A DNA stretch of 64,000 nt, from assembly GCA_922989275.2 (NCBI GenBank), contig OV277864.1:70250158-70314157 (forward strand), read 5' to 3'. Positions 154 through 63,825 of the stretch are shown here, piece after piece. Source of the DNA: Gari tellinella. Taxonomy: Eukaryota > Mollusca > Bivalvia > Cardiida > Psammobiidae. The notes beneath the pieces were generated by a model that was given only the letters and a program-made list of their open reading frames with translations, searched no databases and was not told where the DNA came from. Each line of letters opens with the position of its first letter. Position 1 is the stretch's first letter. A program made the translations under genes and the position numbers.

Positions 154-399
154 CAGTGGAGAATCTGTTGTTCTTTCCCGTTTAAACGCAAACGTACGCA
201 AACGCATTGCACTAAAACGTAGAAAAGAACAACTTTTGGACAATTCTGATAATTCTTGTTTATCTTGGTTGCAAACAGTTTGGAGCCTGATCAGACGCCG
301 GGTTACCCGGCGTCTGATCTTGCTCCAAACTGTTTGCACTGCTAATAATAGTTTTAGCGTAAACGCGTTTATTGGGAAAGAATAACAGATTCTCCACTG
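154..399 (-). mobile_element. Family A MITE, near intact
   Basis: Ends CAGTGGAGAA and TTCTCCACTG are flanked by TA on both sides. The length is 246 bp, shared by many copies in the window. The core 1 palindrome occupies 271-337 with a GGGTTACCC centre. Short coding-like frames across it are by-products of the inverted repeats. Confidence 0.85.
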
Positions 400-894
400 T
401 AGTACTAACTTCAATACTTCAACGGGTTAAGCGATTAGAAAAGGTCAGTACATGTATGTCTGTGTGCAGAACAAAACATTAATTATTATTTAATTCTAAA
501 CATCATGTCCAGGAAAGTATTAAAAGCACAACACGTTGCAGTTGCAATATCTTACACGGTTCAATGACCATGGTCTCTCCAATAACCGATATTTTGCGGA
601 TTGTCTAGGTTTTATTGACACACAAAGTACATCCGGTTCCTCGCCTCTAGACGCGTAATTACTGTTACGCATAATGGATGAGCTAACATACATTTAATGC
701 TAGAGCACTGACAGGACGCTTATACAGGATACTTATACAGGATTCGGGAAATGAAGTTAACCTTTCTCCAATAGACACAATTACAAATTACATGTATCCA
801 ACTCATACATAACATTTAGCCCTTTTACAGTTGGGAAGAAACTATTCTATCCAATTTAACCTTTATCATGTTAAGTGCGACTTGGTTGGTATTT

Positions 895-961
895 GCAAAC
901 AGTTTTCATCCAGATCAGACGCCGCGTGACACGGCGTCTGATCTGGATTCAAACTGTATGC
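895..961. repeat. Isolated core 1 palindrome (E-like variant)
   Basis: GCAAACAG, then CAGATCAGACGCCG, then the mirror CGTCTGATCTGG. The right arm carries the GATTC spelling typical of family E. I could not find convincing terminal repeats around it, so it is a decayed element or a core without ends. Confidence 0.55.
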
Positions 962-1275
962 CACTCATATTCATAGTTTCGTCAATTTGATAAATATATA
1001 ATATAATGTTTTACATTTTGCGCAGACGATATATTAAGCGAGACATAGCTTATCAAATACAACCATTACATATTACTATTTGTTTATATACACACTCTTC
1101 ACAACCAAATTGTCTTTGTTACCCATTCATACCCCAACATTGAAATAAACCTTCCCTGTGTTTGGTGAACGATTAATAATATATAGACAATGGCGATAGA
1201 AAAGCAATGTAGTGTTTGTACATGCAGGAGACTATTTTATATGAAATAGCAAACAGTACAGACAAGGACTCTACA

Positions 1276-1452
1276 TAAGGGGAGTATTTTAAAAACTGAA
1301 ATCTGTATTTTTAAATTAAACCCTATGGTGTCACTATTCATTAGAATCGTCTCTTCGAGACGATTCTAATGAGTAGTCACACCATAGGATTTAGTGGAGA
1401 AAAATTGAGAAATTGCTGTATTTGTTCAATTAACTCTTTCTTATCAAGAGCA
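1276..1452. mobile_element. Family G palindromic element, copy 1
   Basis: Begins AAGGGGAGTATTT. A nearly perfect palindrome runs 1318-1392: CCCTATGGTGTCAC, then CGTCTCTTCGAGACG at the centre, then the mirror. Two further copies lie near 18816 and 30072. Confidence 0.65.
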
Positions 1453-1875
1453 ACATGCAGACCCTTATGAGACAACCAAATTTAAGCGTCTTATCAGGGT
1501 CAACACTGTTTGTTGTTGTCTACTTTTCTAGACGATAGGCATCATTGCGTTAATATGTTCATGTATAAACTTACTTTGTCCACAATACATCTGGGTTATT
1601 TACCCCCCAACTCATTATCACACGCAATTTACTTTGATGAAACATGTTACAAGAAAAGTGTCTCACACTAGCATCAAACCGATATTGTCACGACATGTCG
1701 TATGTCTGTCGTCTTCATTCATCCGAAAGTCGCCAATGTCTTGGTAATTTGAAACATGAATGAGGAAAAACTGACATTCTAAGAATAGTTGAATCGCTGG
1801 ACCAGTTGGACAAATTGTACCATGGTGATGGGTATACGCGTCATTTACAAACTGTCTTGTTGATGAGAAAATGTG

Positions 1876-1962
1876 TCATATGCAAACAGTGTAGACACGG
1901 ATCAGATATAGGAGTCCTCTGATTAGGGTACGCACTGTTTGTCATTTTCCTTTATGTTTAAA
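1876..1962. repeat. Decayed family D core
   Basis: GCAAACAGTGTAGAC on the left and GCACTGTTTGTC on the right surround a degraded GATCAGA centre. It is an old family D remnant; its ends are not recognisable. Confidence 0.45.
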
Positions 1963-2241
1963 GAACAACAATAGGTAGTCAAAAAATGGAGTAGTGTTAA
2001 TTGGAAAGTTGAATTGTCCATAGGCCATCTCAGGGACATATGAGTTTAGCAGTGATTGCTTAATGCATGCCATACTAAATGAAAACAAGTTTTTGATTAA
2101 AAGGTGATGGTTTTCAGATAAAGAGTAAATATGTTTACAGTAAAATTCTTAAACTAAAAAAATGGTAAACAAGTACAGTGCTAAAACACATAAGTTCATT
2201 TCATTAAGACAAAAAGAGTCGTATGTATGCTTTGCCTTTAA

Positions 2242-2484
2242 CCCATTACCCCATAAATACGCCTTTTGCGCTTTTAATTTTTTCCTCCACTGAAGAAAAA
2301 ACTTCCATTGTTTACAGTCATGACTATGTAAAATAAGAAATATTTTCTACATTCTAACAAATGGTAGCTTAAAGTAGACTGAAAGTAAAGCAGAATGTGC
2401 CGTAAGGCACATTCTGCTTTACTTTCAACCTGCTTTAAGTGGTCAACTATCTTCAATACTAAAAACAGGATATGGGGTAATGGG
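2242..2484 (+). mobile_element. Family C MITE, intact
   Basis: TTAA direct repeats at 2238-2241 and 2485-2488 flank CCCATTACCCCATA and its mirror TATGGGGTAATGGG. Core 2 palindrome at 2368-2439. A TTAA target plus CCC-beginning termini is typical of piggyBac-like elements. Confidence 0.8.
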
Positions 2485-2883
2485 TTAAACTAAACTATCT
2501 AAAAGTTAAAAGCGGCTTCATTTAGGAGACAAGTAAATCCTACGGCTCTCAGCATTATATTAGTCGTGTCAAGGACAGGTAATGATTGTGTCCTTTTTGT
2601 GCATTTGAACCAATTCTATGTTGAATGTTTTTCTAATGGACTATTTCACTTTCAATACTTTCAATTATATTGTCTGCTAAAAATGTTACCTGCACTCATT
2701 TTCAACAACAGATTGAAGGCAATATGACAGAATAAACGTTAAACATTTTGGATCATGATCCGGGTTAAGCTAAACTGTTTGTAACTATATGATGCTAAAA
2801 CGAATACAGTCATGAGTTCAGCAAAGAAACAATCGATGGCGGCCGTTGGCCATCGATTAAGAGTTGGCTACCGGTCTGGAATA

Positions 2884-3116
2884 CAGTGGAAAAAACGTTA
2901 TTCTATCGTTCAAACGCAAAACATTGCAATGAAATATAGAAAATGACAACTTTTTTGACAATTCTGACTGCCAGTTTTAAATCTGAGTGGCAAGCAGTTT
3001 GGAGCCTGATCAGACGCCGGTTACCCGGCGTCTGATCTGGTTCCAAACCGTTTGCAATGGAGATTATAGTTTTAGCTTAAACGCGTTTATTGGGAAATAA
3101 AACGTTTTCTCTACTC
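2884..3116 (-). mobile_element. Family A MITE, older copy
   Basis: Left end CAGTGGAAAAAACG after TA, decayed right end near TTTTCTCTAC. Core 1 at 2990-3055 with GGAGCC on the left and GGTTCC on the right. It has more mismatches than the copy at 154. Confidence 0.7.
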
Positions 3117-3544
3117 TACTCTGCACGCTACACACGTGGCACAAACTGCTGACCTAAAGCCCAAACAGTGGCAACTAAACTCACCGCAGAATACCTCCTT
3201 TACCCGCGTCCAATGGTTCTATAACGTCCTCTTTAAAAACTCAAACTAAGATAGAAGGTGGCCAGTAACATAAATATAATATCGATACGAATGTCTTTGT
3301 CAAAGAATTTGGATCTTATTTCCCTTCAAAGCGTCTCTCTTTGATTGATGAAATGTTCAAGGCGATATTTGCGTTTTAAAGATTGCTTGGAACAACAGTT
3401 GATTTGTTCATCAGCTGTCATCGGCGTTGTGGTTAAACATCCTATAAGTGATAAAGTTCAACTTATCTCAATACTACTGCGTTAGTCAGAGTCCCATTAC
3501 TGACAGAAAGACAACACTTAATGCCAAACAGATTCTTGTATTAA

Positions 3545-3937
3545 GAATACCCGGCGTCTCGTCAATCTCAAGACTGTTTGCAAATCAGGTAAAACAAAAG
3601 AAAAACTATTTGTGAAAGATTGGTATTTTATACATTTAATTGAATCGCGTTTCCGTTTAGTATCGTTCAACCCTAACTCCATAGCATGTTTCTAGTTTGA
3701 AGGCAGGTGATCATTTAAAGGAGATTGAAAGTAAAACATAACGCGTAAAGCGCATAAAGATGCACCTGCTTTACTGTCAGCGTTTTTTAATCTACCTTCT
3801 AGTAGGATATAGAATATTTCCTTTGATGCATATTTATTTCTGTATAAAGTGGAGTGTTTTTCTTCAGTGAAAGAACAAATCTAAATGTGTTAAAATACGT
3901 ATTTATGGACTGGATAGTATAACCTCCTCTCCACTGT
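3545..3937. mobile_element. Remnant of family A, split by a family C insertion
   Basis: The half-core GACTGTTTGCAAATCAGG near 3572 and the end CTCTCCACTGTA at 3937 fit the right half of a family A copy. The sequence between about 3668 and 3910 is foreign to family A and matches a family C element. Confidence 0.45.
3668..3910 (-). mobile_element. Degenerate family C MITE nested in an A remnant
   Basis: Starts AACCCTAACTCCATAGCATG. It contains GATTGAAAGTAAA and CCTGCTTTACTGTCAG, a damaged core 2. The end TATTTATGGACTGG is also decayed. It appears to have entered the TTAA of the A motif CGTTTAAAC, but decay makes this uncertain. Confidence 0.5.
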
Positions 3938-4004
3938 ACAGCAACGAAGGGGTTTGTATTGCCCCAAACGTATCATATAGGCGGCGTTATATATTACTAA
4001 AATA

Positions 4005-5098
4005 AATTAGAAACGCAACTTTTTTAAACGTAAGATATTCATGTACAAATATGTTCTCAATATTTTGCACGACTTTTCCGTGTGTGCACCGAGACACTCT
4101 TACCCAGTGATGGAAAAACGTCGTCGAACGCCCATTGATATCACGAGTAGCACGGGCTTAGCGTAAACTAAAGGTCACGTGACTACAGGTAATTGTATAG
4201 AGTAAACCTGTTCGGTTACATTACAAAACTCGTCAGTTAGACCAAGTTAGTAAATTTTAAAAGAAAAAAATCTAATCTGATCAAAGATGGCAATGCCGCG
4301 CTTACGCAATGATCAACGTTAAGCAGCCGTTCGGGTGCTGATGAACGGAAGTTCTCAGAGTAACGTTGTAAATCATCTTACTATGCAAAAAGCACTATTT
4401 CCAGGCTGTATGATCGTCTGCGTACCATTGGTACAACGAACGACCGTCTTCGACCTGGCCTACCCCGAGTAACGTCACGTCGTGATTACCGCCAGAAATT
4501 TTAGAGGTCCTAATAACACCAGACCATGCGCACGAATTGTGTCAAACAGGCTCCGGATCGGCGGAATCAGAGCAAGAAAACCATACGTAAGATTACCGTT
4601 AACAAGGCCTCGACGTCAACGTCGTATGAATTGGCTGCAGGTACATCGTCTAGAGTTGATGTTCATACATCGATGGAGGAGTGTGTTGTTCATTGACAAA
4701 TACAGCCCCGATCTTTCGCCCCTTGAACATCTATGGAACGTCTTGCACGGGCGTGTTTTGAGACGTCATCCAACACCGACGACGCATGGCAAATTGAGCC
4801 GTGCATTGCAAGAGGAGTAGGACCAATTTGTCAAATTAAAGGACTCATCTACTCTCTGCATAGGCTTGTCCGCGCTGCCATGGCGGCACATGAGGGTCAT
4901 ACCAGATATTGACCATATCGTTAGGACTTTACACTGGCGCGACTTGCTCAACGTCATCTCTCCATCACACTTTTTAAGTATGCAAAATTTCTTAGGATGC
5001 AAGTTTAACGTTGAAAATGACATATAACTTTTATAACCAAACTATATAAACAAATGCAATATATATCTCCATAGTTCGAGTTGCGTTTCTAAATTCCT
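4005..5098 (+). pseudogene. Dead Tc1/mariner-type transposon with internally deleted transposase
   Basis: The shared terminal repeat TTAGAAACGCAACT starts near 4007, with its mirror near 5079-5092. Between them lies a broken transposase. An N-terminal helix-turn-helix-like stretch (MPRLRNDQR at 4288) hits a stop at once. A second frame from 4482 to 4820 carries a DNA-binding and catalytic-domain-like stretch. In it, VLFIDKYSPDLSPLEHLW joins the second Asp region directly to the YSPDLSP-E motif, so the sequence that normally separates them is missing. Multiple frames and stops show it is non-functional. It could once have supplied transposase to some TA-flanked elements here, but its ends do not match families A, E or F. 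Confidence 0.75.
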
Positions 5099-7567: not shown

Positions 7568-7773
7568 CAGTAAAACCTCTCTATTACGACCACTAAGTTT
7601 TGTTAATTATTAGGGCGTTTACGATAGGTGACCGCTTAAAGCAAGGTGACAGTGAAACAGAAAGCTCCCTTAGGAGCTTTCTGTTTCACTGTCACCTTGC
7701 TTTAAGCTGCCACCTCTCTATTATACAATCAATTAGCCTTCTTTTTAGTGGTCGTAATAGCGAGGTTTTACTG
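7568..7773 (+). mobile_element. Family F MITE carrying a core 2 palindrome
   Basis: Ends CAGTAAAACCTCTCTATTAC and its mirror GTAATAGCGAGGTTTTACTG are flanked by TA. The ends are of the pogo/Tigger CAGT type. The interior palindrome at 7634-7707 is a core 2 relative: CTTAAAGCAAGGTGACAGTG, then AGCTCCC TTA GGAGCT, then the mirror. Confidence 0.8.
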
Positions 7774-8506: not shown

Positions 8507-8593
8507 TATGGAGGGTTGCTGTCCTTCCAAGTAGCATTGCTCTATAATCTATAATGGCAGACATTGAGTCTTTCGTATTTATTAGTTATTTAA

Positions 8594-8841
8594 CCCTTTA
8601 CCCCATAGAAGCGACTTTTAGCGTATTTAATTTATTCCTCCGCTGAAGAAAATAGTTCCAATTTAATCTGCCATGAATATATATTATGGGGAATATTTTC
8701 TATATTCTAGCACATGGAAGCTTAAAGCATGCAGGCTGAAAGTAAAGCAGAATGCGCCTTAAGGCGCATTCTGCTTTACTTTCAACCTGCTTAAATTAGC
8801 CACCTATCTTTAATACTATAAATAGGCTATCAGGTAAAGGG
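8594..8841 (+). mobile_element. Family C MITE, intact
   Basis: TTAA at 8590-8593 and 8842-8845 flank CCCTTTACCCCATAGAAG and CTATCAGGTAAAGGG. Core 2 runs about 8710-8791 with a small CATG insertion in the left arm. Confidence 0.85.
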
Positions 8842-8914
8842 TTAAGTGTGTATATTTATTTATTGTTGGGGGGTGCAAGTACGGATACGGATTGCCCTAC
8901 GGTTGGAGAACCAA

Positions 8915-9158
8915 GGGCCAGTTTTATGAAACGTCATACGACAAACACGGTCGTAAGTGAAAACTTTAAAATACATCTTATTTCTGATTTCTTCATCTAA
9001 TTCTGTCTTGTGAAATCTCTTTGGAAAAGTCTTTGCAAGACGATTCCAAAGAGATCTCACAAAATGGGATTAGATGAAGAAATAATTAATTATTGAAAAT
9101 TTTATAATCTGACTTACGATCATTTTTGTCGTACGATCTTTCATAAAACGGGCACCAG
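8915..9158. mobile_element. Family H palindromic element, copy 1
   Basis: Ends GGGCCAGTTTTATGAAAC and TTTCATAAAACGGGC are inverted. Inside, a long palindrome (8990-9077) reads CATCTAATTCTGTCTTGTGA, CTCTTTGGAA, then its mirror. A second copy is at 23750. Confidence 0.7.
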
Positions 9159-9317
9159 TTGTATTGTTTTCTTGCATGGCCTGAATATTGCACTGATACA
9201 TTGGAACTCGGTTGCATTCTAAGGACCACGAGTAAGGCGGTGTAAGATCTGGATTCAAACTGTGTGACACTTGTTTCGAATTGGCCTTAGTCATACTACC
9301 TAAAACCTATCTTTTAA

Positions 9318-9560
9318 CTCATTATCCCCTGAAACTTCCAATGGAAAATTCCAGTTTGCAATAAAGGATCGTCCATTTTAGACTATTTAGGGTTGTTTTT
9401 TGTAATAAATTGAAAAATGACAAACAGTGAAGTCCCTGATCAGAGGGCTCCTGCAGGAGCCCTCTGATCAGGGACTTCACTGTTTGCATAGGACAAGTGT
9501 ACTCTTCACAGGTACACGTTTGATAAAAGACGCGTATATGCGTCACTAGGGCTCAATGTG
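9318..9560 (+). mobile_element. Family D MITE, best copy
   Basis: TTAA at 9314-9317 and 9561-9564 flank CTCATTATCCCCTGAAAC and GGCTCAATGTG. Core at 9420-9486: CAAACAGTGAAGTCCCTGAT, GAGGGCTCCTGCAGGAGCCC, then a perfect mirror. The copy at 50696 is almost the same. Confidence 0.8.
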
Positions 9561-10204
9561 TTAAACGATAATGCAGCGGACACTATTGAAACAGACAATA
9601 TGGCGGTGAAGGGATAAGTTCTGACGATAAATTCATCGATGATAGGTTTAATGCATGACTACGGTACAGCAGAAAGCTCCATTGATCGAAAAAACAAAAT
9701 GCTGCATATACGCTCGTAATTTCAAATCAGCTTTATTTTTATCAGCTTTACAACAATCTCAATTTGTTATTTCTATTGTTGCTCGTTTTTGTGTCAATCA
9801 GCTTGTGTATAATAATACTAATGTAACACGTAAACGCATAACTGGGTATTACCATGTTTTGGCAATATGCCTCACGTATGCCTCAAGTATATTTAGGTGA
9901 AAACATTTACGATTTCAGTGAAATTATTATCAACCATATTAAGAGAAACGAATCAAAACTTTGTTAAAGTATACGAACCAAAAGCACACATATTTACATT
10001 AGGAAACACATTTGCTGTTTTGGAACGAGAAAAGCAATTATGGAACTAGACTTCCTGGATGTGTTCTATACGTAGGGGACACACGTCTTACTTTATTATC
10101 TGTGCTGTTTATTTGTACGAGTATTACCGATATAAAGCGTACGCATAATGCATAGTGTTGATGGCATGTTTAAACATGCTCGGAATATTTCAAACAATTA
10201 GTTA

Positions 10205-14684: not shown

Positions 14685-14908
14685 TTGGGGGGAAACGTTA
14701 TTCTTTCTCAACATAGGCGTTTATGTAAAAACCTTATGTATATTGCACACCGTTTGGAGTCAGATAAGAACCAAGTAACCTGGTTTCTGATTAAAACTGT
14801 TTGCCACAAAGTTTGAAATATATCATAAGCATTATTTTACAATTTATTGTATTAAGTTTGAGTTCAGTTTCGTTTAAATTTGAAAGAATAACGTCTTCTA
14901 CATTGTAT
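14685..14908 (+). mobile_element. Old family A MITE
   Basis: GGGGAAACGTTATTCTTTC and GGCGTTTATG on the left, GAATAACGTCTTCTACATTG on the right. The core is reduced to CCAAGTAACCTGG with the outer AAACTGTTTGCCAC. Confidence 0.6.
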
Positions 14909-16044: not shown

Positions 16045-16628
16045 CACTCAGTACAAAAAGAAACGCACATTGTACTCAGGCGCAGATTAAGAGACTTTTT
16101 TAAGATACTAAGACCATATCTCAAGATCAATTTAATTCTGCCACAAGTTTAGAAAAACATATACTTAAAATTACTGTGCTGTATTTTAACCCTTTCAATC
16201 TTAATGACGTCAAAAGGCGCGTTTTCAAACAGTTTGGATCCTGATCAGACGCCGCGTAACGCGGCGTCTGATCAGGATCTAAACTGTTTGACACTCGTAT
16301 AGATATACTTTAAGTCATACTACTTTGAATCTTACTTTGAAACGATCTTGCAAACAACAAAATTGAAGCAGACGACAATGAAAAAGTGGTGGGATAAAAA
16401 TCTCACGATTAATTTGGCAGCGAAAGAGTTAACTAGTGCCTGTTGAAAACATCGCACCGATTTGTACAGGTTGTGATGATTCCAATTAAATGATAAACCT
16501 CCCATTTTCAACATTAGTAGCCCAAGACGGAACTACTGACTGTAATGAAAAGAATATTTCACAAATACGTTCCTTCTACATACAGATACTATTGTAATAA
16601 AAGTGTGCGTTTCTTTTTGTACTGAGTG
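16045..16628. mobile_element. Family M MITE (TA-flanked) hosting a family B copy
   Basis: Perfect 25-bp terminal inverted repeats: CACTCAGTACAAAAAGAAAC extends to GCACA, with the mirror ending TTGTACTGAGTG. Each end is flanked by TA. The AGAAACGCA part recalls the Tc1-type end at 4007. Without its nested B element the host would be about 340 bp. Confidence 0.85.
16190..16428 (+). mobile_element. Family B MITE nested in family M
   Basis: TTAA at 16186-16189 and 16429-16432 flank CCCTTTCAATC and GGCAGCGAAAGAG. Core 1 at 16226-16291 is almost perfect with a CGCGTAACGCG centre. GCAGACGACAATG lies in the long arm. Confidence 0.85.
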
Positions 16629-16820: not shown

Positions 16821-17265
16821 CAGCATCAGTTGCTGATTAAAATGTACATAGCTGATCGATGTTTAACGGGTACATTAAACAGAAGCTGCAATAATCATGA
16901 TCAAAACTGTTGGCACATGTTATTACAATAGAGCAAGCTAAAGCTTAAGGATACGTCGGTATTTAAATATGTCAATCAGTACAACTGAAAGAGGATTAGA
17001 GAGCTTTTAGTTCTACCATGTCACGATACAGAATCATTAGCAAATATCCCTGCACCATGACAATTTAGAGCTTAATGAGACTGATTTTTTGTTTTTACAG
17101 AGAACCGTTTTGATATGAAAATGTCTTTATAAACACGTATATATATGTTAATGTAGGAAAATGATTTATGTTGGTGATTGAACCCATGTAGAATTGATTT
17201 AAAGTATAAATCAACGCTTTAACCTACATGTTCATTCTTACATGACGGTATATGTTTATTGAGAA

Positions 17266-17720
17266 ATAAACTGAATTTTTCGGCGTTCAAGCGAAATAAA
17301 CGACAGAAAATGATCGGCAAATTCCATGAATCGCGTTAGCGATTCATAATAAATTTGCCGATCATTTTCTGTCGTTTATTTCACTTAAACGCCGAACAAT
17401 TTAGTTTATTTCTTATATTTACATTATATGTGTTGTAACTTCTAAAAATAAATGAACATTTTATTAGTATGCATGTATATTTAATCCATATTATAGGTTG
17501 TTAACACGAATAATGTGTACCCTGAAAGGAACAGCCATTACTGCCATTACCCAGGGAACGCCACAAAAAGATTCGCGGAGAGCAGGTTGATAAAGCCCGC
17601 CTCCACTGCGAGAATATGTACAAGTTCTGTCTCTAGAAAAATTGCGTTTATACGAAATAAACGTCACTTTGTTCAATAGAATGGAATGGGGCGAATGTAA
17701 ATATTCGTTATTGAATTGCA
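17266..17720 (+). repeat. Family I dispersed repeat with perfect hairpin
   Basis: A hairpin at 17290-17397 (GGCGTT, AAATAAACGACAGAAAATGA, TCGGCAAATT, GAATCGC GTTA GCGATTC, then the mirror) is followed by a conserved flank to about 17720. The flank includes GTTGTTAACACGAATAATGT. A second copy at 63120-63560 shares the flank but has a collapsed hairpin. Confidence 0.7.
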
Positions 17721-18815: not shown

Positions 18816-18982
18816 AAGGGGAGTATTTCACAAACTAAAATCTTTATTTCTGCAATAAACCCTATGGTGTCACTACTCGTTAGAATCGTCTCTTCGAGAC
18901 GATTCTTATGATTAGTAACACCATAGGATTTGGTACTGAAATTAGTGAGAAAATGTTGGTTTTGTTCAGTTTACTCCCTCTT
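18816..18982. mobile_element. Family G palindromic element, best copy
   Basis: Ends AAGGGGAGTA and TACTCCCTCTT are inverted. Central palindrome 18859-18933: CCCTATGGTGTCACTACTCG, centre CTCTTCGAGAC. The flanks match the copy at 1276. Confidence 0.75.
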
Positions 18983-22887: not shown

Positions 22888-22904
22888 TAACAGTTGAACT
22901 TAAC

Positions 22905-23000
22905 CCATTGAAGCCTAGTGTCTACTAAATATAACTTTGGCAGGCATTGTAGACTCAATGAGACGCGGCGTCTCACCGAGGTCTGCACAGTTTGCTATTC
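22905..23000. repeat. Shortened core resembling families K/D
   Basis: CATTGTAGACTCAATGAGAC, GCGGCGTCTCACC, GTCTGCACAGTTTGC. It is preceded by TTAACCCATTGAAGCC, a possible TTAA-class end. Confidence 0.4.
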
Positions 23001-23101
23001 CATATGAATTGTTCACCTGTATGGGCAAACACTGCATTGTCTTTAGATAAAGCGCAAGAGGAGAGTTCATTACAGTTCATAACAAGGCATAAATGGGTTA
23101 A

Positions 23102-23749: not shown

Positions 23750-23972
23750 GGGTCCCGTTTCATAAAACCTCGTAAGACAAATGTTGTCGTAGGTCAGATT
23801 TTAAAAGTCTCAATTATTATTTATTTCTCCATCTAATCCTGTCTTGTGACATCTCTTTGGAATCGTCTTGAAAAGACGATTCCAAAGAGATGTCACAAGA
23901 CAGAATTAGATGGAGAAATCCGAAATGTAATTTAAAGGTTTTTGTCGTACGAAGTTGAATGAAACGGGCCCC
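23750..23972. mobile_element. Family H palindromic element, copy 2
   Basis: Ends GGGTCCCGTTTCATAAAAC and GAATGAAACGGGCCCC. Palindrome 23829-23918: CTCCATCTAATCCTGTCTTG, then TCTTTGGAATCGTCTT, centre GAAA, then the mirror. It is preceded by a worn family B half-core (23710-23745). Confidence 0.75.
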
Positions 23973-26332: not shown

Positions 26333-26578
26333 CAGTGGAGAATGTGTTATTCTTTCCCAATAAATGCGTTTACGCTAAAACTATTATTTGCAGTGCAAAC
26401 AGTTTGGAGCCAGATCAGACGCCGGGTAACCCGGCGTCTGATCAGGCTCCAAACTGTTTGCCACCAAGATAAACAAGAATTATCAGAATTGTCCAAAAGT
26501 TGTTCTTTTCTACGTTTTAGTGTTTTGCGTTTGCGTACGTTTGCGTTTAAACGGGAAAGAATAACAGATTCTCCACTG
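26333..26578 (+). mobile_element. Family A MITE, young copy
   Basis: 246 bp, TA on both sides, CAGTGGAGAATGTG to GATTCTCCACTG. Perfect core 1 with GGGTAACCC. Near-identical to the copies at 26823 and 32833. Confidence 0.92.
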
Positions 26579-28029: not shown

Positions 28030-28256
28030 CAGTGGAGAATGTGTTATTCTTTCCCAATAAATGCGTTTACGCTAAAACTATTATTTGCAGTGCAAACAGT
28101 TTGGAGCCAGATCAGACGCCGGGTTACAAAACTGTTTGCCACCAAGATAAACATGAATTATCAGAATTGTCCAAAAGTTGTTCTTTTCTACGTTTTAGTG
28201 TTTTGCGTTTGCGTACGTTTGCGTTTAAACGGGAAAGAATAACAGATTATCCACTG
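28030..28256 (+). mobile_element. Family A MITE with one core arm deleted
   Basis: Ends and arms are as in the 246-bp copies, but the core runs GACGCCGGGTTAC straight into AAACTGTTTGCC. About 20 bp of the right palindrome arm are gone, giving 227 bp. Confidence 0.88.
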
Positions 28257-28822: not shown

Positions 28823-29980
28823 CTACACATGAGTTTCTCCGCCATTCCCGTTATTGGTGGTCACAGATGTTCCATTTGTGGACAGACGGACAGTCATCTT
28901 TTTCTTCACGCTGTCGCCAAAACTCGTGTGAAGGCTCGTGTACTCCGTGCGTATTTTTTCTGGAAGAGTTCTTTGCAACACCGACCCAAATATATTGATA
29001 AACTCTTTGCGAAACTGCTTACCAGTAATGCAGTAAATATAGAAATTTAAGGCAAAATGGGTCATTCCAATGTCTTCAATAATTTCACGAACTAGTTCAT
29101 ATGTGTAGTATTGTCGCCATGCTGGATGGTGTTCATGGGAAGCACACGCTGGTCCTTCTTTGAAGAACAAGACTGAAACGTACACAATAGACACCGGTAG
29201 TGTAGTAACGATTAGATAGAAGGACACGGCTAAAAGCATGATTGTCGTCGCCGAGGTCTTTTGATGACGCCCAGCAACCTGTCCGGGCTCATATGCTTGC
29301 AAACGTTGCGTCTCGCGGATCACAAAGATATTAAACGTTAAGACACAGAGTGGCATGATAAGAAATATCAACAATTCCGTCGTCATTGACCATATGTTCC
29401 AGAAAGAGCTTGCTCCTCCCGCCAATAATTCTTCTCGTATTCCACATCCATGTTCACCGTACCTCCAGAAATAACCCTGAATTGCACATATTGCTAGGGA
29501 ACCAAGCGCGAGACATACCGATACAAACCTTGCACGTCTCTCCGTACAATACTTTTCTCTTGCAAACGGATGACATATAGAAATATAACGTTCAATAGTG
29601 AACGCTAACACAAGCAAGGGTGCTAGATACTGAAAGGTAAGGAAGATCACGGTGAAACTTTCGCATATTATAGGATGATTTAATGTGTTGATTTGCCACG
29701 ACTCATTCAGATATAATAGCATATGTAGAATGAGAAATATAAAGTCTACAATGGCTAGGGCTGCTAGGTAAACGCCAGACGAGTGGCGCATTTTCGGACG
29801 CATCCACACAGTAAATGCTAAAGCGTTGCCAGGGAAACCTAACACATATATCACGGGTTTGAAGATTCGGTCGAGCATTGTAATGTCGTATAACAGGGAA
29901 GATGCTTCCGGGACACACGCAGTCGCATTGTCACTTGCATTTTGGGTGACCGAAGTCGAATATATCTCTGTCGTGTTCAT
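28823..29980 (-). CDS. Class A (rhodopsin-family) neuropeptide-type GPCR, intronless coding exon
   Basis: A 385-residue seven-helix receptor, presumably in the plasma membrane coupling a peptide ligand to G protein. The N-terminus has glycosylation sites at N2, N14 and N18. TM1 has GFPGN (N52); TM2 has LAIVDF (D79). C106 before TM3 and C179 in the second loop can form the usual disulfide. TM3 ends in ERY (130-132), followed by ISICHPF. TM6 has P262. TM7 has NFYIY (312-316) in place of NPxxY. The TM4 tryptophan seems absent. The last residues ETHV fit a class I PDZ ligand. The pattern recalls FMRFamide-receptor-like or GPR139-like orphan receptors of molluscs; I cannot choose. The start is the ATG at 29978-29980 with G at -3; a GTG one codon earlier is not a credible start. 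Coding sequence has no break. Confidence 0.92.
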   Translation of the reverse strand: MNTTEIYSTSVTQNASDNATACVPEASSLLYDITMLDRIFKPVIYVLGFPGNALAFTVWMRPKMRHSSGVYLAALAIVDFIFLILHMLLYLNESWQINTLNHPIICESFTVIFLTFQYLAPLLVLAFTIERYISICHPFAREKYCTERRARFVSVCLALGSLAICAIQGYFWRYGEHGCGIREELLAGGASSFWNIWSMTTELLIFLIMPLCVLTFNIFVIRETQRLQAYEPGQVAGRHQKTSATTIMLLAVSFYLIVTTLPVSIVYVSVLFFKEGPACASHEHHPAWRQYYTYELVREIIEDIGMTHFALNFYIYCITGKQFRKEFINIFGSVLQRTLPEKIRTEYTSLHTSFGDSVKKKMTVRLSTNGTSVTTNNGNGGETHV

Positions 29981-29989
29981 CACTCCTTT

Positions 29990-33714: not shown

Positions 33715-33916
33715 AGGGCTGCCATAAGTCGATCACAAAAGTTCCTTAGATTTCCAAATTTTCTCTTTTGTCAATTGCAATAACTTAAAGCAGATAGAAA
33801 GTAAAGCAGAATGCGCCTTAAGGCGCATTTTGCTTTCATTTCAGCCTGTTTAAGCTACCTTCTGCTATGATAAAAATTCGAAGATTTCGGAAAAAATCCG
33901 GAGAATTGGAAGCCCT
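33715..33916. mobile_element. Family J MITE (hAT-like ends) carrying core 2
   Basis: Flanking 8-bp words GTTGTACA and GTTCTACA differ at one base. Ends AGGGCTGCCATAAG and TTGGAAGCCCT are inverted. The interior is core 2: ACTTAAAGCAGATAGAAAG, GAATGCGCC TTAA GGCGCATT, then the mirror. A second copy is at 48385. Confidence 0.7.
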
Positions 33917-36911: not shown

Positions 36912-37265
36912 TAGTGCTCGCTCCCTCCCTACAACGGCCATCCAAACAACGATTTTCTCCTTACAACGACCCTTGCCACTGTTCCCAAAACAAGGCATTT
37001 GTGTCCAGCCTTTTCATGGTTGCAATATCGTCTGCTTAAATTTGTAGTCTGCAATTTTTCTCAAAGTTACATATAAGTGGAAATTATGATAGAATAGATA
37101 TAATTACTAGTGACAAACAACTTTAATCCAGATATGAAGCCGCTGGATTCAATCTGTTTGCAAAAGTAAGCCAACTATTCAGTTAACATCCCTATAACGA
37201 CTCCCTCCGAACAACACACACAATATGTGTCTCCCATTGTGTGTCGTTTTAGAGAGGGAACACTG
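36912..37265 (+). mobile_element. Family E MITE
   Basis: AGTGCTCGCTCCCTCCCTAC to GTCGTTTTAGAGAGGGAACACTG. The internal arm has ATATCGTCTGCTTAAA. The core is reduced to ACTTTAATCCAGATATGAAG and GGATTCAATCTGTTTGC. Confidence 0.75.
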
Positions 37266-39939: not shown

Positions 39940-40305
39940 CAGAGACCTCCCCCTACAACGGCCCTCCGAACAACGGTTCCCTCCTTACAACGATGCTTGT
40001 CGCTGTTCCCCAAACTATACAGCAATATCGTCTGCTTAAAATTGTCATCTTTTTTTTTCTTCTAAGTTACATATTGGAATTTTGGACAGAAAAAAACAAC
40101 AGAATGACGAGCGGCAAACAGCTTGAATCTAGATCAGACTCAGCGTACGCGCGGTATCTGATCTGGATTCAAGCGGTTTGCAATGTAAGCCTAGTCATGG
40201 TCAACCCTCTAAGGGTATAAATGTTCCCTCCCTATAATAGCTCCCTCCGAACTACACACACAATGTTTGTTTCCCATTGGGTGTTATTGTAGAGATGGAC
40301 CACTG
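39940..40305 (+). mobile_element. Family E MITE, full length
   Basis: TA, CAGAGACCTCCCCCTACAAC; right end GTTATTGTAGAGATGGACCACTG, then TA. Core at 40114-40182 with GCTTGAATCTAGATCAGAC and the mirror GTATCTGATCTGGATTCAAG. ATATCGTCTGCTTAAAATTG is in the left arm. Confidence 0.8.
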
Positions 40306-41171: not shown

Positions 41172-41506
41172 CAGCGTTCCCTCTCTACAACGACATCCAA
41201 TGGTAGACAAAAAATGTGTGCGTTGTTCGGAAGGAGTCGTTACAGGGAGGAAAAATGGCTTATATTTGCAAACAGCTTGAACGCGGCGTCTGATCTGGAT
41301 TCAAGCAGTTTGTCAATCATCATTAAGTTTATTTCTGTCTTAATGCGCATAACGTAACTTTGAGAAAACAGCAGACGACAATTTTAAGCAGACGATATTG
41401 CAGTCGGAATAGGTTGGACATAATTGTTCTGTTTAGGGAACTGCGACAAGAGTCGTTGTGAGGAGGGAGTCGTTGTTGGGAGGGTTGTTGATAGGAGGGA
41501 GCACTG
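41172..41506 (-). mobile_element. Family E MITE with one core arm deleted
   Basis: TA, CAGCGTTCCCTCTCTACAAC; right end GATAGGAGGGAGCACTG, then TA. The core reads GCAAACAGCTTGA straight into ACGCGGCGTCTGATCTGG, so most of the left arm is gone. GCAGACGACAATTTTAAGCA is in the arm. Confidence 0.8.
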
Positions 41507-44632: not shown

Positions 44633-44636
44633 TTAA

Positions 44637-44828
44637 CCCCTTCACAACCATGACGCCATGTTTTTTAAAAGTTGTCGTCTCCTTTTATATACACGTTGTT
44701 TTGTTTTGTTTTGAATTTCCTTTCAGCAAACAGTGTAGACTCTGATCAGACGCCGCATTATGCGGCGTCTGATCAGAGTCTACACTGTTTGCCTATGTCC
44801 CTTTTACGGGACCCTGGGCACAAATTGG
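44637..44828 (+). mobile_element. Chimeric MITE: family B left end, family K core and right end
   Basis: TTAA 44633-44636, CCCCTTCACAACCATGACG and TTGTCGTCTCC are B-like. Then CTTTCAGCAAACAGTGTAGA opens the perfect K core (about 44725-44793, GCATTATGC centre). It ends CCTGGGCACAAATTGG, TTAA 44829-44832. Confidence 0.7.
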
Positions 44829-44832
44829 TTAA

Positions 44833-45917: not shown

Positions 45918-46107
45918 ACTCCTTCACTGCCTTGCCCCAAGTATAATTGGTATTTTTGCAAACAGTTTTGATCCTGATCAGACGCCGCATCAAAACTGTT
46001 TGACGCTCTTTACGGTATTTCTTTACTCAGATTACCTAAAAACTAAATTTGAGAACTAAAAGCAGACGACAATTGCTAAAGCTGATGACGTCATGACAGT
46101 AAAGGGG
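45918..46107 (+). mobile_element. Family B (CACTGCCTTGCCCC subtype) with one core arm deleted
   Basis: CTCCTTCACTGCCTTGCCCC to GACGTCATGACAGTAAAGGGG, TTAA 46108. The core reads GATCCTGATCAGACGCCGCA directly into TCAAAACTGTTTGAC. Confidence 0.75.
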
Positions 46108-48092: not shown

Positions 48093-48384
48093 AGCAATCA
48101 GACTTGCTCTGCACCCAATCAATAGATAACTATAGAATATCGTTAATGACAGGATGCTGATTAACACAAGACAATGGGGACGCAGTAAACAGCTAATAGA
48201 AAACGTCTGCACAAAATCTGTTCTGCACATTGGGAATCGACCTGTCTGAGAATAATTTGAATGTTGTTTTGATAAGGTTCGACTTAATACAGAAATAGCC
48301 TGCTTCTCTTGAGAAGGTGATATTCGTTCAAAGTAAGTCTTGTCCATTGTTAAATGATTACAATATAACTGCAATGTATGACAC

Positions 48385-48617
48385 GGGGCTGCCATAAGTT
48401 GATCATAAAAATCCTAAGATATCAAATTTTCAATTTTTCAGGCGCAATTTTACTAATCGTACCTTTATCCCATAGTCTGTTTCTTGTTTTGAAGACACAT
48501 GTCTGCTTAAAACAGGGTGAAAGCAAAGCAGAATGCGCCTTATGGCGCATTCTGCTTTACTTTCAGCCTGTTTTAAGCTACGAATACTTAAGAAAAATAC
48601 GGAGAAATGGCAGCCCT
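48385..48617. mobile_element. Family J MITE (hAT-like ends) carrying core 2
   Basis: Ends GGGGCTGCCATAAG and ATGGCAGCCCT. Flanking 8-bp words TATGACAC and GATGACAA match at six positions. Inside: CTTAAAACAGGGTGAAAG, GAATGCGCC TTA TGGCGCATTC, then the mirror. It is the better-preserved relative of 33715. Confidence 0.7.
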
Positions 48618-48629
48618 GATGACAATAAT

Positions 48630-51822: not shown

Positions 51823-52007
51823 ACCTTTTCCCCATAGCATGCTTTCAGTAATGAAGAGAGATTGTTGTTCAAAGCAGAATAACAGTAAATCATAATTGTT
51901 CTACCATGTGCTTGGAAATAGAAAGTGTTTCTTAAGCTATACGTATTCCTTACTCTTCAGTTGAGGAATATATTAAAAGCCATACATCGTATTTACGAAG
52001 TAATTGC
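51823..52007 (-). mobile_element. Old family C MITE without core palindrome
   Basis: TTAA 51819-51822 and 52008-52011; ends CCTTTTCCCCATAGCATG and ACGAAGTAATTG. The core is collapsed to TTCAAAGCAGAATAACAG. Confidence 0.6.
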
Positions 52008-57265: not shown

Positions 57266-57455
57266 ATCCCTTTCACTGCTGCAATATCGTCTGCTTAAAA
57301 TTGTCGTCTGCTGGATTTTTTCTCCAAAATTACATATTTGACATTTTGTCAGAAGAAACAAAAGTACGAATGACAAGCAGTTTGAATCCAGATCAGACGC
57401 CGCGTGACGCGGCGTCTGATCTGGATTCAAACTGTTTGCAAATGTAAGCCATGCA
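57266..57455 (+). mobile_element. Chimeric MITE: B-like end with E-type interior
   Basis: TTATCCCTTTCACTGC is the TTAA-class B terminus. The interior ATATCGTCTGCTTAAAATTG, TCGTCTGC and the perfect core 57374-57440 with GAATCC spelling are E-type. TAAGCCATGCAAGTCG continues the E arm. No E terminus is present. Confidence 0.6.
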
Positions 57456-59495: not shown

Positions 59496-59499
59496 TACT

Positions 59500-59772
59500 A
59501 CCGCAACCGTGGCCTAGTTGTTAGGGCGTCCGCCTCGGAAGCGGGGGGTCGAAGGTTCGAATCCCGGAGCCGGGTAAGGGGTTGGGACTGATATGGCCGG
59601 TTGGTGAGCCGCCAGCTAGTTAAACGAATTGTTACCTTAGGCCCGTCTCTGCCAGTCGCCCGGCAACATGAGAAGAGCTTCGGGAGGTACTGTGCGCGCA
59701 AAAAGGATAGGTGTCTCATAAGGCTGGTCCTTTCAATAGGGGTGACACTATAATAAACAAAGCCTTTACCTT
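59500..59772 (+). mobile_element. tRNA-derived SINE, apparently full length
   Basis: The tRNA-like head at 59503-59575 has an A box (GTGGCCTAGTTGTTAGGGCG). Its anticodon stem is TCCGC/GCGGG around the loop CTCGGAA (CGG at the anticodon position). The B box is AGGTTCGAATCCCGG. The acceptor ends do not pair, so this is not a working tRNA gene. A body of about 185 bp follows, then the tail AAAGCCTTTACCTTTAC, where CCTTTAC repeats. Transcription would be by RNA polymerase III. Partner LINE unknown; the tail differs from the RTE fragment at 11866. Confidence 0.8.
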
Positions 59773-59839
59773 TACATTTTACTACTCAACACAATTACAA
59801 ATGCAATGCAGTATAATTTCATTGTATTCTTTTAAAATA

Positions 59840-60015: not shown

Positions 60016-60384
60016 CATAGTATTTCTTAAACATTAAAAAATAACAATGTTCCTTACGTGGTCGTTATACTAATAGTATTGTACTGTATGCGTATCCATT
60101 TAGAATATTTACACATAGTAAATATATTACGACATGGCCGCGTGTCCAGTTCAATCAAACGAGAGCCAGAAATGCGTTATAGTAAGGCACTTGTGTTATA
60201 TCTTCAAACAACGAGATGTTTCTCACGAATTATAGCAAATAGATGGCATTGTGGCATCCACAAAGGTCTCATTAAACCAATTCTGGTAGGTTTCTTTCAC
60301 TTGCCTGTATAGTATTATCTCAATCATAGTCAGACAGAGCTAATTACAAGTCTACTTATCCCTTCCTCAAAGACAAGTATGCTA

Positions 60385-60603
60385 CAGTAGATTCTCCCTA
60401 TTACAACCAAGCCAATTTCTGTAAGATGTAAGTTTTTCGATGTTAAATGCAGGTTAAACCTAAAGCAGGATAAAAGTAAAGCAGAAAGCTCCCATAGGAG
60501 CTTTCTGCTTTACTTTCATCCTGCGTTATGTTCTGATATGGGTTTAATTATAATATAGTTAATGGGTGGTCGTTTTTAGTGGGCGTACCAAACAGTTTTA
60601 CTG
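60385..60603 (+). mobile_element. Family F MITE carrying a core 2 relative
   Basis: TA, CAGTAGATTCTCCCTATTAC; right end GTACCAAACAGTTTTACTG. Core 60463-60527: GCAGGATAAAAGTAAAGCAG, AAGCTCCC ATA GGAGCTT, then the mirror. The arm GCAGAAAGCTCC is intermediate between core 2 of family C and that of the F copy at 7568. Confidence 0.75.
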
Positions 60604-61265
60604 TTCGTTTGTATATATTTGAATTCAGAACAGGCGCTTGGTTTTTAGTTTATTTGTATAAACGTTGATGGCATTAACGTCTAATGGACGCTTTTTACAG
60701 AACAAATACAATGTATTCCATAATCGTTTTAATCACTATGTAATTAGCCTGTTCAGTAGGAAAAAGTTTTTGTTCGAAACCTGGTATCTGCCTAGGTTCT
60801 TAAATGTTTGTCAATGGTAAGTGTAAACTATATATGTTTTTGCTAAGTGTGCTATAAAACATTACTAACGCTGATCAGATGCTGTTTTTCAATACAGAAT
60901 TTGATATAAGTATACATATACACTCCTTTCTATCAAATGTTTATTCTACAAATGATACGGCTTATCAATTTATTTATCATTTAAAACGAATTTTTTTTAG
61001 CCTCTTTCCACCATAAGTATTTTACTTGTTTTAGCGTTAAAACAGATTGCTTCTTAAAGGAAAGGGGAAGTATACCAGCATTTTTGCTTTCTAATGATGT
61101 CTATGTACTTTTCCGTTATGTATTTTAAACAGTGGTGTGTGTAGGAAAAACTTCTTTTAATCAAAATAGGGCAGAATCAAGCCATTGCATTTCTGTAATT
61201 ATTCGCACGCCCTCCAATAAACTGCATTTCTGTTAAGGAACACATTATAAAATACGTCGTCACCA
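60604..61265. other. No feature seen
   Basis: AT-rich; a lone GATCAGATGCTGTTTTTC near 60873 has no mirror. Confidence 0.4.
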
Positions 61266-61289
61266 TAAATAGCTAGATAGACGGTATTC

Positions 61290-61755
61290 CTTATCGTTTA
61301 AGTCTTATCAGACGCCTAGTTACTTGGAGTCTAACTTGTCTCTGAAATGCTTGAAATGGACATATAGGATCTGTCATGAGTCGATGTTTAAGACAAGCGG
61401 ATCTCAAACGAGTCTAGAATTGAAATGTTATTAACCTTAGCGAGCTTTATAACTTTTCTATTCTAGACGAGTTTGAGAGTATTAAACATCGACTAGTGAC
61501 ATATTCTTTTTCTCACATAACCAACGATCTTAAGTTATTTTTAAAGCAATAGGCTTTTTTCGGAATCCCCGTGACGTAATCACGTACAATGACGTTATAC
61601 AGTGACGTCATCAAATTGATCTCACACATGTTGGAGACAAGGATATTCGTAATCGTTGTTCGCTGTTGAAAACAGGAGTAGATCTAGTTATGTGAGAAGT
61701 AATTGTTTGAATACACACGAGTTTATCAGAAATACATTACGTCTTCTCCACTATA
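61290..61755 (-). mobile_element. Family A remnant with a large palindromic insertion
   Basis: Half core TTATCAGACGCCTAGTTACT and GAAATGCTTGAAATGG on the left; CACACGAGTTTATCAG, TACGTCTTCTCCACTA on the right. The intervening part contains the hairpin at 61373-61502 and a TGACGTCA-containing stretch (61570-61612). Confidence 0.45.
61373..61502. repeat. Long inverted repeat inside an A remnant
   Basis: GTCATGAGTCGATGTTTAA, CTCAAACGAGTCTAGAAT and the mirror ATTCTAGACGAGTTTGAGAG, TTAAACATCGACTAGTGAC, with a spacer of about 40 bp. Confidence 0.75.
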
Positions 61756-61759
61756 TTAA

Positions 61760-61967
61760 CCCCTTCACTGCCATTACGTCATCAATTTTAAAATATTGTC
61801 GTCTGCTTGTATTCTTAAATTAAATAGTTAGTTATTTTGACTTATGAAATATTGAAATGAGTGTAAAACAGTTTGTATCCTGATCAGACGCCGCCTTACG
61901 CGGCGTCTGATCAGGATCTAAACTGTTTTCAAATTACTTGTGTACTCGGGGTAAGGCTGTGAAGGGG
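61760..61967 (-). mobile_element. Family B MITE, well preserved
   Basis: TTAA 61756-61759 and 61968-61971 flank CCCCTTCACTGCCATTACG and GGTAAGGCTGTGAAGGGG. Core 1 at 61867-61930 has a CCTTACGCGG centre. TTGTCGTCTGC is in the long arm. Confidence 0.85.
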
Positions 61968-62104
61968 TTAATTCGATATACAATTCGGGGTTGTTTTATT
62001 GGAAGCAACGTTTCTTGCGTGGCATAAGTTTGGGGAATATTTCATCTCTTATATACAAATACCGGTATACAAGAGATAAACCACTACTTCAAACAGATTA
62101 TCCC

Positions 62105-62475
62105 GATTACTTAAAGACGTTAATATTTTCGAAACGAAGCGCAAATGCAATGGAATGACGATGGCAACCTTTTGAATTTGTTAAACATTTGTTTAATATG
62201 AATGGCAAACAGTGTAGAATCAAATCCGCTGTTTTCCTCGAAGTTACATAATGGACATTTTGACGGAAAACAAACTTAATGACGAGTGACAAACAGCTTG
62301 AATCCTGATCAGAAGCCGATATACGCGGCGTCTGATCTGGATTAAAGCTGTTTGCAATTGTAAGCCAATTTCCCTCCTTATAACGAATCTCTACGATGAA
62401 CGCACACACTTTTTGTCTCCCATTAGGTGTCGTTGTAGAGAGGGGGCACTGTAATTAAAATCTTCTCCATCGTAA
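62105..62475 (-). mobile_element. Family A remnant interrupted by a family E copy
   Basis: CGAAACGAAGCGCAAATGCA, GAATGACGATGGCAACC on the left and AAAATCTTCTCCATCG on the right bracket E-type sequence. The A core is lost. Confidence 0.5.
62217..62452 (+). mobile_element. Family E MITE, left-truncated
   Basis: AAGTTACATAATGGACATTT, core 62287-62356 (GCTTGAATCCTGATCAGAAG ... GTCTGATCTGGATTAAAGC), GCACACACTTTTTGTCTCCC, right end GTTGTAGAGAGGGGGCACTG, TA. Confidence 0.7.
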
Positions 62476-62479
62476 AGCA

Positions 62480-62680
62480 ATCACATGTCTGTACCAAATA
62501 TACTCAGTGAATCTTAAATTTAGCTACAATGCATTCAGGTGATAAGCAAAATATGTGGTAAGAATGTTAAACAAGACTTTCTCAGGTTTGAAACATTTAT
62601 CACTGAAAAAATCTTTATGTATTCTTTGAACTCCATGACTGTAGACTGTCTACAATGTACTTCAATGATAAAATGCTAAA
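62480..62680. other. No feature seen
   Basis: Short spacer. AAACAAGACTTTCTC here recurs at 62890, hinting at a local repeat. Confidence 0.4.
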
Positions 62681-62682
62681 TA

Positions 62683-62868
62683 CAGTCGAATTTCGATATA
62701 TCTCGAATAAGCTTATCTCGAATTAAGAATTGAATCTGAAATTTATTTATTTATACATCGCTTAAGCCGAACAAATCCATATTTCAAAGTTGAAACTTGG
62801 CTAAGCCACGTTTTAACTTTGAAATACGTATATGTTTGACTTGAGCGGGTTCGAGAAATCGAAGTTTG
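62683..62868 (+). mobile_element. Family L MITE
   Basis: TA, CAGTCGAATTTCGATATATC; right part GCGGGTTCGAGAAATCGAAG. Central hairpin 62777-62828: ATTTCAAAGTTGAAAC, TGGCTAAGCCACG, then the mirror. Related to 18065. Confidence 0.65.
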
Positions 62869-63119
62869 ATTTATGTGATGGGAACGTGAAACAAGACTTT
62901 CTCTTACTTTAGATCATCTATCGATGTAAAAATCTCTGAAGAATTTTCGAACAGTGACTTTAGAGCCAAAATAAGCAGACGGGTCAATTATTTACGTTTT
63001 GATTACTAGAAATTTCAGACAAAGAGTCACAGGCGAGTGATAATGTATTCGCCTGCTTCAACATCGTCTGAATCAAAATCTAATAGTCATAGTATGCTTC
63101 GACTTAAGATTTATTTAAG

Positions 63120-63560
63120 ACATGAACTGGTTTTTTCAGCGTTTAAACGAAATAAACGACAGAAAATGCTCGGCAAATCCAGGCGCGATTCATTGTAAAT
63201 TTGCCGATCATTTTACGTCGAAAAAGAAATCAGTTCATTTCTTATACGAGCGTATTTACATTATATTTGCTGTAATTTCTAACATTAAATCGACATTCTA
63301 TTAGAATGCATGTATGTTTAATCCATATTAGAGGTTGTTAACATGAATAATGTGTACCCTGAAAGTAACAACCATAACCGCATTACTGAAGCAACGCAAC
63401 AAAATGATTCGCGGAGAACAGATCCATAAGCCCCGCATACTCTGCGAAAGATTTTCACAAGTCCAACCCTCTCTTGCTATTGCGTCTTTACGAATTAAAC
63501 GGCTTATTTTTCAATGGAATTGAATGGGATTTGACATTTTCAATAAATATCCACGGTCTA
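63120..63560 (+). repeat. Family I dispersed repeat, collapsed hairpin
   Basis: CGAAATAAACGACAGAAAAT, CGGCAAAT, then a damaged mirror AAATTTGCCGATCATTTTAC. The flank GAGGTTGTTAACATGAATAA and GTGTACCCTGAAAG matches 17500-17530. Confidence 0.65.
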
Positions 63561-63613
63561 CTTTTGATTGTAGTGCGTTATCGTTTCATACAACTCTTCC
63601 ACTGCTGCTTTAA

Positions 63614-63825
63614 CCCTCTTGCCGCCAAAGTGTCGTCTGTATTGGAAATGGCGTCTGCACTATTTTTAAAGTCAACTTAAGGTCTGTTTTGACTGAAGAA
63701 ATGTCGATACAAGTGTCAAACAGTTTGAATCTTGATCAGACGCCGCGTTTAGCGGCGTCTGAACAGGATCCAAACTATTTGGAAAATCGCCTTTTGGCGA
63801 CGTTGACAGCGAAAGTTAAACGGGA
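63614..63825 (-). mobile_element. Family B MITE inserted in an A right arm
   Basis: TTAA 63610-63613 and 63826-63829; ends CCCTCTTGCCGCC and GACAGCGAAAG. Core 1 at 63717-63782 with a GCGTTTAGC centre. The right flank AAACGGGAAGGAATAGCG, TTTTCTCTACCG is a family A end. Confidence 0.8.

Follow-up and report, generated by a model that had tools for sequence, protein, structure and literature searches.

We analysed a stretch of 64,000 nucleotides from the bivalve Gari tellinella (contig OV277864.1, positions 70,250,158 to 70,314,157; the window), in which short, near-perfect palindromic hairpins, called cores, recur inside miniature inverted-repeat transposable elements (MITEs). A first-pass annotation had described two such cores in families with different ends and target sites, and had taken the palindrome to be an independent module. 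Related hairpins do occur in elements with TA-, TTAA- and hAT-like ends, as it claimed. For the most part, the hairpin was probably inherited in one TTAA lineage and carried into other MITEs by nesting, re-amplification and erosion; one large family, A, is not accounted for in this way.

Related hairpins in MITE families with different ends

Cores were searched for by BLAST with four core consensuses (c1, c2, the D variant c3 and the F variant c4) against the 64-kb window, whose A+T content is 64%. The search gave 107 core places (72 for c1, 20 for c2, 13 for c3 and 2 for c4) covering 10.4% of the window, compared to no match in each of 20 shuffled windows. Palindromes scoring at least 16 numbered 67, part of them not cores, and each of 20 first-order Markov shuffles had 0. 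The palindromes listed in the first-pass annotation were confirmed, those in families D, K and F being distinct variants of core 1 or core 2. No core matched an Rfam model at gathering score, the sole hit in the window being a transfer RNA (tRNA) at 59503-59572; viral contigs scanned with the core 1 pattern and the core 2 pattern gave 0 matches each; and a protein search with an open reading frame (ORF) running through a core returned 10 candidates, none reaching E 0.001. Two near-alike long hairpins, at 1317-1393 and 18857-18931, have another centre (GAATCGTCT...AGACGATTC) and apparently form a separate fold-back family; a centre partly like theirs is found, in other arms, at 8987-9083 and 23823-23919.

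Families were assigned by clustering the core places by their flanks, with the core masked. Clustering on wide flanks merged 76 of the 107 places via their neighbours and was dropped. The clusters obtained were A (26 places, TA), a B-like TTAA cluster (20, including K and T copies), C (16, TTAA, core 2, including one J copy at 48505), D (12, TTAA), T/E (6) and F (2), with 25 singletons. The family consensuses were built without 4 of the A places and without many degraded copies in the other families.

TTAA stands at both ends of B, T, C, D, K and M (one representative each; many further copies are degraded). All six families start with TTAAC and the next bases are similar at most ends (TTAACCC-like), in the manner of piggyBac-type elements. 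B and T also have a common right flank. Since these families end alike, the hairpin was probably inherited among them. As for the terminal motif CC[C/T]T, used as a criterion in a study of coral elements (PMC2872659), T and C have CCCT or CCCC at each end, the listed B copies have it at one end, and the other TTAA-family ends depart from it (for example CTCT, CTCA, ACAC, CCAA and CCCA). No piggyBac match was obtained among the 8 scanned of the 11 window ORFs of at least 110 amino acids (aa).

A TA duplication with matching terminal inverted repeats (TIRs), of the Tc1/mariner-pogo type, was found in A, in F and in the E element at 41172-41506, and the ends of these three families are CAG-type: A ends read TA followed by CAGTGGAGAA..., and F (7568-7773) starts with TA followed by CAGTAAAACC.... 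The ends of J (GGGCTGCCA) we take, by their consensus, to be hAT-like. Different transposases act on TA, TTAA and hAT-like ends. The termini previously attributed to A, E and F 7568-7773 (TA) and to B, C, D and K (TTAA) were confirmed. Of the 8-bp duplication attributed to J, 7 of 8 positions were seen by eye at 33715 and none in register at 48385, and 60463, which groups with F by its flanks, has no TIR pair.

The shared segment in families E, J and F

Two profiles were used, a T profile made from five T-type TTAA elements without any E copy, and a C profile made from twelve C copies, none of them from J or F. In the controls, the real core was kept and the flanks were shuffled (200 controls per copy). 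The T profile extends far past the palindrome in the E copies 40114, 41280, 37165 and 62290 (Table 1), and all four scored above all 200 controls, as did both J copies and one of the two F copies (F 7568) with the C profile. In J 48385, the match covers the core and most of the C right end. The DNA shared in E and J is part or most of a TTAA element, beyond the palindrome alone. The first-pass annotation had drawn the boundaries of the shared segment too tightly: sharing reaches beyond the palindrome in E, J and F 7568.

Family E looks like a TA element with a T-type TTAA element inside. Copy 40114 keeps the left end of this passenger, and the match in the other three copies begins about 25 bp later (profile position 30 or 31, compared to 5); these differences look like stages of erosion. 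The occurrence of TTAA-element flank and core together in E, J and one F copy fits what nesting would give.

We propose, as a rather probable scenario, that one diverse TTAA (piggyBac-type) MITE lineage, to which B, T, K, M, D and, more distantly, C belong, has inherited the hairpin as an internal part. Elements of this lineage would have inserted into MITEs of other superfamilies, and the composites would have been re-amplified by their outer ends. Erosion of the passenger's own ends would have followed, so that varying lengths of flank remain beside the hairpin. Such nesting would have placed the TTAA flanks in E, J and one F copy, and may have occurred earlier in A. Arm-to-arm copying via hairpin formation, or selection on the hairpin, would keep the arms matched.

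Table 1. Representative cores and elements of the window, with the observations on which each call is based
Feature	Positions	Strand	Observations
Core 1, A variant, GGAGCCAGATCAGACGCCGGGTAACC...	26395-26461	.	palindrome score 30, one-base loop; A cores 22/23 in one clade
Core 1, B variant, GGATCCTGATCAGACGCCGCG...	16225-16291	.	palindrome score 30
Core 2 of a C element	8720-8795	.	palindrome scan and core BLAST
Family A representative, TA-flanked, CAGTGGAGAA ends	26333-26578	+	TIR score 23.5, TA on both sides, core inside; one place of the 26-place A cluster (27121) doubtful and omitted from later tests
Family B, TTAA-flanked, piggyBac-type ends	16186-16432	+	TTAAC...GTTAA pair enclosing the core
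T-type TTAA element, the kind apparently found inside E	61756-61971	-	TTAACCCCTTCACTGCC / TTAACCCCTTCACAGCC ends, core 61866
Core of the T-type TTAA element nearest the E passenger	57374-57439	-	fork with T 895 and two E cores, SH-aLRT 82; flanks like E
Family C, TTAA-flanked, core 2	8590-8845	+	TTAACCCTTTACCCCATAG / TTAACCCTTTACCTGATAG ends
Family D, TTAA-flanked, core 1 variant c3	9314-9564	+	flank and core matches, ends; D cores 10/10 in one clade, SH-aLRT 97
Family K, TTAA-flanked, own core 1 variant	44633-44832	-	consensus, flank matches, ends
Family M, TTAA-flanked, located by its ends alone, degraded core 1	22900-23101	+	core remnant narrowly above 200 shuffles (15 vs 14)
Family E (copy 41280), TA-type, CAGCG/CAGTG ends, apparent T-type TTAA element inside	41172-41506	+	T profile 31-223, score 77.9 vs at most 34.9 with shuffled flanks, 0/200
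Family E (copy 40114), keeping the left TTAA-type end of the passenger	39964-40305 (ends approximate, from flank hits)	-	T profile 5-202, score 92.7 vs at most 51.2 with shuffled flanks
Family E (copy 37165), passenger hairpin with central deletion	36941-37265 (ends approximate)	-	T profile 30-215, score 53.3 vs at most 26.6; core remnant 0/200 shuffles
Family E, fourth copy (62290)	62120-62451 (ends approximate)	-	T profile 30-165, score 92.2 vs at most 68.6
Family J, GGGCTGCCA ends, core 2 and most of the C right end	48384-48618	+	C profile 125-247, score 112.2 vs at most 87.4 with shuffled flanks, 0/200
Family J, second copy, shorter C remnant, 7-of-8 duplication GTTGTACA/GTTCTACA	33715-33916	+	C profile 112-204, score 77.9 vs at most 74.4, 0/200
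Family F, TA, CAGTAAAACCTC ends, core 2 variant c4	7568-7773	+	TIR with TA on both sides; C profile 104-225, score 66.9 vs at most 50.7, 0/200

Core tree and termini

The core tree, like the arm comparison below, was based on 60 of the 107 places, cores shorter than 48 bp and places without a family label being left out. It requires 12 label changes, compared to a shuffled mean of 32.9 and a possible minimum of 5. Branch support is given as the Shimodaira-Hasegawa-like approximate likelihood ratio test (SH-aLRT). The A cores fall in one clade in 22 of 23 cases (SH-aLRT 97), the outlier being one very diverged copy, as do the D cores in 10 of 10 (SH-aLRT 97). The two K cores pair, and two E cores share a fork with T 57374 and T 895 (SH-aLRT 82). 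Cores and termini, which an independent module had been expected to set at odds, agree in A and D and are mixed in B and T. Since the A cores form one clade, they probably go back to a single transfer; taken with the D clade and the E-T fork, the tree is more easily reconciled with a single transfer into A and a single one into E than with free exchange.

Core variants that track termini in A and D would also be obtained if all TA and TTAA families came from one core-bearing ancestor, with the termini replaced or diverged and the core inherited throughout. A further hint of this kind comes from the arms of the two cores. The likeness of the core 1 arm of D to the core 2 arm of F was reached by 0 of 1000 shuffles (1 of 1000 after trimming the first letters), and core 1 and core 2 may therefore go back to a single old hairpin. 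For the D arm and the core 2 arm of C the figure is 1 of 1000 (14 of 1000 trimmed), but the remaining core 1-core 2 arm pairs are weaker (10 to 256 of 1000 shuffles, 10 to 300 trimmed). Moreover, TA, TTAA and hAT-like ends belong to different transposases, and a nearly whole TTAA element lies inside the TA ends of E, both of which speak against common descent of the families. We consider such an ancestor very unlikely and retain nesting as the preferred explanation.

Empty core sites and cores without flanks

With flanks alone as queries, left and right flanks of one family were paired, giving 49 distinct elements (51 rows, with two duplicates). A called core lay between the flanks in 46 of them. 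The remaining three (14734-14836, 37112-37164 and 51862-51902) were read as degraded or deleted core remnants, each with 0 of 200 shuffles as high, the remnant at 51862-51902 being barely above control (14 compared to a null maximum of 12). Empty-core versions of the families, which the idea of an independent module called for, were thus found in 0 of the 49 elements with both flanks within the 64-kb window.

Masking each core with 150 bp to its left and right, together with seven further stretches, left 28.5 kb; this remainder contains ten small repeat families, each with 2-3 copies, and a single stretch that is self-inverted. By construction these have no called core nearby, and some could be outer parts of longer elements. 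From the ten families, the hairpin is probably not carried by every repeat in the window. A two-copy repeat of more than 400 bp (17238-17690 and 63110-63528), partly self-inverted, likewise has no called core nearby.

At the threshold used, a recognised flank adjoins 79 of the 107 cores. Several of the other cores have a B/T-like CACTC alongside and, for this reason, are not to be taken as cores free of any MITE, such as the first-pass annotation had envisaged. The flankless cores may lie inside or outside a MITE.

Family A and the points against nesting

A number of results weigh against nesting, first among them those obtained with A, the largest TA family. When 24 A copies (27121 and 28092 dropped) were compared to the T profile, the mean score was 61.8 with real flanks and 61.5 with shuffled ones, 441 of the 480 control sequences having scored at all. 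The mean right extension was 18.9 bp compared to 12.2 bp in the controls, a value reached by 1 of 20 control rounds; B copies, used as positive control, gave 99.3 bp (10 copies). In six A copies the T profile had seemed to continue into the A flank, but this failed against shuffled flanks in the 24 copies, and comparison of the A right flank with those of B, T and E by family profiles gave no signal above shuffles. A shares with B/T only the palindrome and, immediately to its right, a one-sided CACTC (8 of 25 A copies and 12 of 21 B/T copies, background 0.0024). Because this CACTC lies outside the palindrome, the segment shared by A is slightly larger than the palindrome, and one-sided. Family A may be an ancient nest that has eroded, or it may have captured just the palindrome.

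To these points are added that F 60397 is not beyond its control (21 of 200 as high), that J 33715 exceeds its own narrowly (77.9 compared to a maximum of 74.4), that 28 of the 107 cores have no recognised family flank, that B and T cores are mixed and neither is a clade, that the core tree is weakly resolved (41 of 54 inner branches open), and that the 64-kb window showed no empty outer element for E, J, F or A.

Alternatively, the palindrome itself could be a mobile or recombining module, either a tiny element or a segment moved by hairpin-driven template switching, that enters unrelated MITEs without flanks. The sharing by A of just the palindrome and CACTC and the 28 flankless cores point in this direction, and the co-change of arms within A, B and T copies, described below, would fit hairpin-templated copying. 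On the other side, none of the 49 sites is empty, the A cores form one clade and hence probably derive from one transfer, the DNA shared in E, J and one F copy exceeds the palindrome, and the shared CACTC lies outside it. We regard this alternative as unlikely. The independent module proposed in the first-pass annotation is mostly not supported, the A and D cores tracking their termini; it may apply to A, whose flanks resemble the TTAA element no better than shuffled ones do.

Paired changes in the hairpin arms

Compensated and one-sided changes were counted between family consensuses. Between most families the consensuses differ in both arms together, the ratios of compensated to one-sided changes being 8/0 for A-D, 7/0 for D-T, 7/1 for B-D, 6/1 for A-K, 5/0 for B-K and 2/1 for A-B. 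Pairs involving the E consensus, which comes from two decayed copies, are mostly one-sided (2/6 for B-E, 2/5 for E-T and 3/4 for A-E, but 5/4 for E-K). Within families, right arms were permuted among copies (2000 permutations). Compensated pairs numbered 10 in A compared to 2.9 expected (0 of 2000 permutations as high), 5 in B compared to 1.15 (6 of 2000) and 9 in T compared to 3.4 (3 of 2000), some of the excess being subfamily structure, for example GATGAG...CTCATC cores, which the permutation leaves in place; in D, 4 pairs compared to 2.0 expected (240 of 2000) are not clearly beyond permutation. One-sided changes within copies are far commoner (74 in A, 35 in B, 45 in T and 47 in D). Hairpin-forming DNA is prone to one-sided central deletions, and deletions of this kind were seen in the cores at 28092-28127, 41280-41312, 45958-45988 and 37112-37164.

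The paired changes raise a possibility compatible with nesting, that the hairpin is retained for a function, as a transposase or host-factor site or as a structure enhancing amplification, and therefore outlasts the eroding remainder of the element. The compensated changes in A-D, B-D and B-K are consistent with this, as is the presence of the hairpin in each cross-superfamily case examined. However, the elements were selected by their core, so that retention is partly ascertainment; the comparisons with the two-copy E consensus are mostly one-sided; co-change in D is not beyond permutation; subfamily structure enters the co-change counts; and several E and A hairpins have central deletions. 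We hold a retained function to be possible but doubtful. A stronger proposal, in which the hairpin of about 66-74 bp would be a selfish module crossing transposase superfamilies and outliving its termini, with arms matched by templated copying or selection and A as a palindrome-only capture, appears distinctly unlikely. With nesting as the preferred explanation, the remaining points of interest are family A and the paired arm changes.

Other features of the window

The longest ORF of the window (28823-29983, minus strand) is an uninterrupted rhodopsin-type receptor of 386 aa (Pfam 7tm_1). Its best named matches are in Mactra antiquata (65% identity), Mercenaria mercenaria (63%) and Mya arenaria (59%), from which a heterodont bivalve is the most likely host, and several of its bivalve relatives are named FMRFamide receptor-like. 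A possible Tc1-like transposase fragment lies at 4482-4820 on the plus strand, with weak DDE_3 and HTH_Tnp_Tc3_2 matches below curated cut-offs. The tRNA match at 59503-59572 (plus strand), outside the cores, is marginal (30.6 bits compared to a gathering score of 29) and possibly a tRNA-derived repeat.

Relation to known elements and significance

The closest precedent is probably the coral CMITE group (Acropora; Wang et al. 2010, PMC2872659), which, in the sections available to us, appears to illustrate both inheritance and nesting. These are TTAA MITE families whose TIRs are less conserved than an internal region of about 75 bp, and CMITE-IN is a new element made by a CMITE inserting into another element and apparently mobile again. 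As in the window, TTAA flanks and piggyBac-type ends are found, different TIRs surround a conserved internal region, and the ends of CMITE family VI (CCCTTTCACTGCCA) resemble those of T. In contrast to the window, the coral internal region is not described as a palindrome in those sections, and the core studied here is also found in TA- and hAT-type elements. A 60-bp CMITE internal consensus gave no significant match in the window (best E 0.29).

In MER6 (Luchetti et al. 2019, PMC6887750, from the portions accessible), a conserved domain of one element family was captured by a Tc1/Mariner MITE, and this MITE then multiplied; unlike here, the donor is a short interspersed element (SINE; V domain) and no hairpin is described in those portions. 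The bacterial REP/REPIN sequences (PMC3116915 and PMC3733652, in excerpt) are also abundant short dispersed palindromes. In the accessible main text of the Mercenaria genome paper (PMC8905726), no word starts with MITE or palindrom, while piggyBac appears a single time, within a table. Among the literature matches listed, no palindromic core common to TTAA, TA and hAT-like MITEs was described and, for nested MITEs and central palindromes, nothing nearer than the coral CMITEs was found.

The window would offer a case of MITE families of different superfamilies gaining a shared interior by nesting, re-amplification and erosion, with apparent intermediate stages in a single stretch of DNA. With the paired arm changes, one can ask whether each arm of a DNA palindrome serves to rewrite the other. 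Should A prove to have taken nothing but the palindrome, MITEs would possess a central domain that can be transferred, much like the conserved domains of SINEs.

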